DNA of 37,350 nucleotides from Rhodospirillales bacterium (GTDB lineage Bacteria; Pseudomonadota; Alphaproteobacteria; Rhodospirillales; 2-12-FULL-67-15): positions 1 to 37,350 of the forward strand of contig SHWG01000004.1 in assembly GCA_009693905.1 (NCBI GenBank), written 5' to 3'. How positions within the stretch are numbered: the stretch's first letter is position 1; each line of letters begins with the position of its first letter. Position numbers and translations under genes: made by a program. The notes under the pieces were generated by a model, which made no database searches, was not told where the DNA came from, and saw only the letters and a list, made by a program, of their open reading frames with translations. Below, piece by piece: positions 650 through 3,504 of this stretch.

Positions 650-2845
<2,196 letters not shown>

Positions 2846-2888
2846 GGCGTGTTCTCTTTGTCCCCAGATATTTCGCTACGTCGGCGCA

Positions 2889-2917
2889 AGTATAGCAACC
2901 GCCTCGCCGCCGGACAT
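2889..2917 (-). promoter_or_regulatory. Putative scpA promoter (extended -10)
   Basis: On the minus strand TGCTATACT gives an extended -10 (TATACT at 2894-2889, preceded by TG-C). The -35 at 17-bp spacing is weak (ATGTCC). It lies 44 bases before the scpA ATG. Read by eye only. Confidence 0.4.
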
Positions 2918-2955
2918 TTCCGCAAACTCGAACCATCATATGGACTTAACGACCA

Positions 2956-2983
2956 TTATCCACAATCTATAGACTTATCCACA
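2956..2983 (+). promoter_or_regulatory. Two perfect DnaA boxes (TTATCCACA) between scpA and gcrA
   Basis: TTATCCACA occurs at 2956-2964 and again at 2975-2983, in the same orientation and 19 bp apart start to start (about two helical turns). Both match the classical DnaA box TTATNCACA exactly. They sit just upstream of the putative gcrA promoter at 3000-3028. In Caulobacter DnaA directly activates gcrA transcription (established), so an activator site is the simplest reading. Part of an origin is the alternative, but no dnaA, dnaN, hemE or parAB is nearby. Confidence 0.75.
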
Positions 2984-2999
2984 ATATCTTGTGTTTTTG

Positions 3000-3028
3000 T
3001 TGCCGACATATCCATTCCTTTGTAGAGT
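3000..3028 (+). promoter_or_regulatory. Putative gcrA promoter
   Basis: TTGCCG (3000-3005) and TAGAGT (3023-3028) with a 17-bp spacer each match the sigma70 consensus at 4 of 6 positions. It is 16 bp downstream of the second DnaA box and would leave an untranslated leader of roughly 105 bases before the GcrA ATG. Confidence 0.4.
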
Positions 3029-3141
3029 TTATTCATGAACGGACGCCGAAGGGGCGTCTCGAATACCCAGCGGAGGCGAAGCTCGCGGCAGAGGAGAGGG
3101 TTTGGGAACTTTCCCCACCCCGCGCGCCCGAAACACCGGAC

Positions 3142-3504
3142 ATGTCGGAAGAATGGACACCGCTCAAGATCAGCGCCCTGATCGCCCTCTGGAACGAGGG
3201 CCTTACCACCAGCGAGATCGGCAATCGGCTGGGCGTCACCAAAAACGCCGTCATCGGCAAGGTCCATCGCTTGGGTCTGCCGAAGCGCAATTCGCCGATC
3301 CCCAAGAAACCCGAACCCGCCAAGGTGCTGCGCTTCGAGAACATCGCACCCGGCCAGTGCGCCTGGCCCGAGGGCGAGCCGGGCACGGAGGAGTTCCGGC
3401 TCTGCGGCGACCCGGCGATCGAGGGTAAGCCCTACTGCGCGAGCCATTGCGAGCGGGCCTATGTCCGCGTCGTCAAGGAGCGCAGGGACACCGAAGCCGC
3501 CTGA
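3142..3504 (+). CDS. gcrA: GcrA-family cell-cycle transcriptional regulator
   Basis: GcrA binds sigma70 and methylated GANTC promoters to drive S-phase gene expression in alphaproteobacteria (family knowledge). The start ATG at 3142 gives MSEEWTPLKISALIALWNEG, matching the family's N-terminus; an in-frame upstream extension is open but lacks a start and similarity. Residues 1-46 form the DNA-binding HTH, including TKNAVIGKVHRLGL (residues 33-46). The C-terminal sigma-interacting region has C73-A-W-P, FRLCG (C88) and PYCASH (C99, H102), a spacing that could hold a metal. At 120 residues it is shorter than Caulobacter GcrA because the central linker is short. No strong Shine-Dalgarno precedes the ATG. 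No ccrM methylase gene is in the window. Confidence 0.93.
   Translation: MSEEWTPLKISALIALWNEGLTTSEIGNRLGVTKNAVIGKVHRLGLPKRNSPIPKKPEPAKVLRFENIAPGQCAWPEGEPGTEEFRLCGDPAIEGKPYCASHCERAYVRVVKERRDTEAA

Follow-up and report, generated by a model that had tools for sequence, protein, structure and literature searches.

Exact tandem DnaA boxes upstream of gcrA carry NrdR-box-like palindromes in a lineage of Rhodospirillales

Introduction

The gcrA promoter of Caulobacter crescentus has one DnaA box, by which DnaA activates it directly (PMC3193534; Hottes et al. described this promoter in 2005, according to PMC8203912). NrdR represses reductase genes and binds DNA when it carries both dATP and ATP; the C/G pairs in its box are essential (PMC9110341). 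For the NrdR of other bacteria, strong binding was found with 15–17 bp between boxes (31–33 bp between their starts), and also when the distance grew by one helix turn (PMC12051234). At topA of Pseudomonas aeruginosa there is a single box and NrdR is an activator (PMC4409342). In a 2025 study of Caulobacter, high dNTPs delayed the start of replication independently of CtrA and DnaA levels, by a mechanism that its authors stated to be undefined (PMC12186491). The PMC papers searched on NrdR together with gcrA or Caulobacter report no link between NrdR and gcrA.

Results

The gcrA locus and its DnaA boxes

The stretch of DNA analyzed here (the window; 37,350 nucleotides) belongs to a MAG of 1.91 Mb in 132 contigs, 82% complete, whose nearest named relative is Rhodospirillales bacterium RIFCSPLOWO2_12_FULL_67_15. 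It encodes the cell-cycle regulator GcrA (3142–3504, + strand; 120 aa; PF07750, E 3.5e-27) and, divergently, the B12 gene scpA for methylmalonyl-CoA mutase (650–2845, − strand). The region between these genes is best explained as the control region of gcrA. A gcrA promoter, TTGCCG-17-TAGAGT, is predicted at 3000–3028 on the + strand, with a putative start site at about 3035; it was read from the sequence, and its elements align and are conserved in the genus. Neither CtrA nor CcrM sites were found in the intergenic region.

A small hairpin at the start of the predicted leader (3042–3058, + strand; GACGCC-GAAGG-GGCGTC) folds in the three genomes of the genus, and the genus alignment revealed a compensatory change in sister genome G002. 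The fold of the whole leader was no more stable than that of shuffles (z about −0.5), and a known RNA element was discarded as a candidate, the Rfam search being empty over 2840–3200.

Two perfect DnaA boxes had been claimed upstream of gcrA by a sequence-only reading of this DNA, and both exact copies of the consensus TTATCCACA were confirmed, at 2956–2964 (box 1) and 2975–2983 (box 2), on the + strand and 19 bp apart from start to start. They are the sole exact matches within the 37 kb window; with at most one mismatch there were four matches, versus 1.46 expected. Genome-wide scans were done by pattern search only, and they gave 14 exact matches in the MAG versus eight for the reversed control. 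The check that had been proposed, an alignment of the intergenic region from relatives, showed that both sister genomes keep both boxes and their 19-bp spacing (3/3 in the genus), at −186/−167 and −187/−168 from gcrA, within a region that has otherwise partly diverged.

Exact tandem boxes are rare in the order, which would suit an origin of replication or a site that titrates DnaA: a same-strand pair with a gap of 6–16 bp was present in just 15 of 317 genomes. At gcrA the exact tandem is mostly confined to the genus of the window, most relatives having a single box in either orientation. The GC skew, which the sequence-only reading had named as the check for an origin, had no minimum at the boxes, its profile running from about zero to negative. 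The two are the only exact boxes in the window, with no box cluster, and their position relative to the gcrA start is conserved across families. It is extremely improbable that they form part of an origin or a titration site.

DnaA boxes upstream of gcrA across the order

The upstream regions of gcrA were collected from 130 genomes of the order, representing 27 families and 71 genera, all oriented to gcrA. The commonest 9-mer of all in these regions was TTATCCACA, present in 57 genomes and 28 genera; 1000 permuted 9-mers gave a mean of 0.41 and a best value of 11, the best being shifted versions of TTATCCACA. Two outliers aside, its positions cluster between −113 and −224 from gcrA, in either orientation. 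The counts for the order are uncorrected for phylogeny and, because the genomes are related, overstate independence; the sites nevertheless span many families. Since the boxes are conserved beyond chance in both the genus and the order, they are most naturally read as a sign that the DnaA-to-GcrA link is conserved, and the earlier suggestion of such a link in this lineage was borne out. The further suggestion that the link may be stronger here stays a conjecture. The link itself is not new, as it is already known in Caulobacter.

NrdR-box-like palindromes fused to the DnaA boxes

The new part, and the more interesting element, escaped the sequence-only reading: a palindrome that resembles an NrdR box is fused to each of the DnaA boxes. 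Palindrome B (CCACAATATCTTGTGT, 2979–2994) is near-perfect and invariant in the genus, and it has CCACA (2979–2983) in common with DnaA box 2. It scored 19.4 of 20.3 bits with a matrix derived from nrdJ and was the best match of the genome to ACACWATATATWGTGT in a pattern search for NrdR boxes. Its 16 bp include the conserved C4 and G13 and the C/G pairs essential for NrdR, and the genome encodes an NrdR with the DNA-contact residues of the family (D15 and R17). The weaker palindrome A (CCACAATCTATAGACT, 2960–2975) lies 19 bp upstream of B and overlaps DnaA box 1 by CCACA; it has decayed to 5.6 bits in the window from the 13.1 bits that it scores in both sister genomes.

A second NrdR box three or four helix turns from B is absent in the window. 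The expected position of palindrome C (ATCCATTCCTTTGTAG, 3010–3025), at +31 bp and over the predicted −10, scored −3.4 bits and is degenerate in the genus, which therefore lacks half of the two-box arrangement that is usual for NrdR; palindrome C is good in many other families of the order.

It had also been suggested that the boxes could tie scpA to replication. Both genes have the intergenic region in common, and some 110 bp separate the boxes from the start of scpA. Relatives without scpA in the 3 kb upstream flank have boxes and palindromes upstream of gcrA all the same, and L057, L058, L064, and L066 have the sites with no scpA beside gcrA. This tie was not upheld: in view of such relatives we rejected scpA as the conserved target of the sites, and we hold it very unlikely that the boxes regulate scpA, on which they may have a side effect in the genus of the window.

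Survey of gcrA promoters with a matrix derived from nrdJ

The NrdR-box matrix was built from the regions upstream of nrdJ (class II ribonucleotide reductase) in 25 genomes, and no gcrA sequences entered it. The search was seeded with the published NrdR consensus, so the resulting motif, CACWANATNTWGTG, is NrdR-like by design; its pairs are mostly 31–33 bp apart. Sites of at least 8 bits were found in 100 of the 130 gcrA upstream regions, versus 14.8 in shuffles, and 300 column-permuted palindromic matrices all fell short of the real count, whether the threshold was 8, 12, or 14 bits. The NrdR-like palindrome is conserved at least as well as the DnaA box.

Pairs of palindromes at gcrA were spaced by 19, 31, 32, and 50 bp in 28, 14, 11, and 18 cases, against a null of about 0.01–0.05 (about 0.01 for 31 and for 32 bp). 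The 31- to 32-bp spacing agrees with the NrdR requirement, for which the literature names 15–16 bp between boxes (PMC12051234). The 19-bp spacing is no NrdR spacing, and we counted it against NrdR. A spacing of 42 bp, matching one extra helix turn, occurred at gcrA in several other alphaproteobacterial MAGs, and one of 33 bp at many Pelagibacterales gcrA loci.

Over the 130 upstream regions, 19 bp is the most frequent palindrome spacing and 50 bp (19 + 31) is also frequent; a three-box layout of 19 + 31 bp lies outside the known NrdR geometry. In Pelagibacterales (L090–L124), CTACTATATATAGTAT is found about 66 bp upstream of gcrA, usually with a second palindrome at −33, and TTATTCACA often at about −105, in DNA of 23–28% GC with a high background.

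Four families (f16, f18, f22, and f29) have NrdR, no DnaA boxes, and nearly no NrdR-like sites at gcrA, which suggests that the wiring of gcrA was lost or replaced there. Only four NrdR-negative genomes have GcrA: G395 had two sites at gcrA (10.5 and 12.5 bits) and the three others had none. We counted both the four families and G395 against NrdR.

Composite DnaA/NrdR sites

Of the gcrA promoters, 55 had an exact DnaA box no more than 300 bp away, and every one of these also had an NrdR-like site; an NrdR-like site with no exact DnaA box occurred in 45 of the 130. Box and palindrome overlapped in 34 of the 55 promoters (about 35% per box would be expected at random placement), and the +4 offset of the window recurred 22 times in seven families. 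The composite TTATCCACAAnATnTwG occurred 46 times in 317 genomes, versus twice for the reversed control; coordinate comparison and tblastn placed 26 of the 46 upstream of gcrA, and gcrA loci outside the order but within the class had it as well (G341, G375, and G462). A DnaA box was present in one of 20 nrdJ upstream regions, which shows that the fusion is not general to NrdR boxes.

The sharing of CCACA between DnaA box and palindrome, and the activation of gcrA by DnaA in Caulobacter, would also fit a plain DnaA–gcrA link in which no second protein takes part and the palindromes consist of inverted, degenerate half-sites for DnaA (CCACA...TGTGG). We find this improbable, because the palindrome is kept in the 45 promoters with no exact DnaA box, many of its forms (e.g., ACCCTAAATATAGTGT) do not contain CCACA, and its core CnAnATnTnG is that of the nrdJ boxes, where DnaA boxes are rare.

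Sites were also observed elsewhere in G000. The composite TTATCCACAACATATAGTGC lies upstream of a FecR/adhesin-like gene (C112:26659–26709; L284 2160–2210), with a second palindrome 31 bp away adjoining TATAAT, and both sister genomes have retained the palindromes. Further NrdR-like palindromes lie upstream of mnmE (C36:495 and 526, a 31-bp pair) and dsbA-smc (C48:2846) and at priA/DUF484-xerC (C132:9422), in L287, L285, and L286, respectively; these are replication and segregation genes.

Similar sites lie near several genes with no obvious dNTP connection, namely tolC, dsbA-smc, mnmE, and a giant adhesin-like gene, and could point to another regulator. DnaA alone would then act as proposed below, and a different cell-cycle regulator with an NrdR-like motif would bind the palindromes and control gcrA, smc, mnmE, priA/xerC, and others. 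The frequent 19-bp spacing and the sites in one genome with no detected NrdR fit such a protein, as do the sites near smc, mnmE, priA/xerC, tolC, and the adhesin-like gene. The motif, on the other hand, comes from nrdJ promoters, whose known regulator is NrdR, and the spacings of 31–32 (and 42) bp are those of NrdR. We know of no other regulator with an NrdR-like palindrome, and we consider this explanation unlikely, although it deserves more weight than that of DnaA half-sites.

Discussion

A model of gcrA control by DnaA and NrdR

On the sequence evidence, we somewhat favor a model in which overlapping sites let DnaA activate gcrA and let NrdR restrain it at high dATP; the gcrA promoter would probably read both the start of replication and the dNTP supply. 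In this model, DnaA would bind boxes 1 and 2, centered at about −76 and −56 from the predicted start, and activate gcrA at the start of replication as in Caulobacter. DnaA binding at these boxes is well supported by precedent. For the second protein, we infer that NrdR loaded with dATP/ATP would bind palindrome B, which has five base pairs in common with DnaA box 2. The overlap of the two sites at the level of base pairs suggests mutual exclusion: NrdR would block DnaA or compete with it, and an excess of dNTPs would make gcrA fall. Many relatives have another NrdR-like box 31–32 bp downstream, over the −10, which is the geometry of a classical repressor; in the genus of the window this downstream box has decayed, and an extra palindrome is present 19 bp upstream instead.

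That NrdR restrains gcrA is a guess as to direction, given that the single NrdR box at P. aeruginosa topA activates. We also counted against NrdR that deletion of nrdR in Caulobacter leaves the dNTP-dependent G1 delay unrelieved (PMC12186491). The wider proposal, that NrdR directly controls the master cell-cycle regulator gcrA in much of the Alphaproteobacteria, in competition with DnaA at a composite site where the two overlap, and that dNTP supply gates the DnaA–GcrA module, is put forward tentatively, its chances falling slightly short of even. If it is true, an NrdR-type site fused to the DnaA site of gcrA would connect dNTP pools directly with the cell-cycle circuit, and the NrdR regulon would extend beyond the reductases and topA.

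Comparison with known systems

The locus resembles gcrA of C. crescentus in having DnaA boxes closely upstream of the promoter. It differs in their number and context: one box is described in Caulobacter, whereas the window has two, in exact tandem and both fused to NrdR-like palindromes.

With the NrdR boxes of reductase genes (PMC9110341; PMC12051234) it has in common the consensus CACWANATNTWGTG, the spacing of 31–32 bp in many relatives and 42 bp in some, and the placement of one box near −35 and another over −10. It differs in that the predicted target is a cell-cycle regulator and in the overlap with a DnaA box; in the genus of the window, moreover, the second box is degenerate and the neighboring palindrome lies at 19 bp.

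The topA gene of P. aeruginosa (PMC4409342) offers a parallel for single-box NrdR control outside the reductases, which here is predicted. The predicted target in our case is gcrA, whereas topA is activated by NrdR and no DnaA box is described there.
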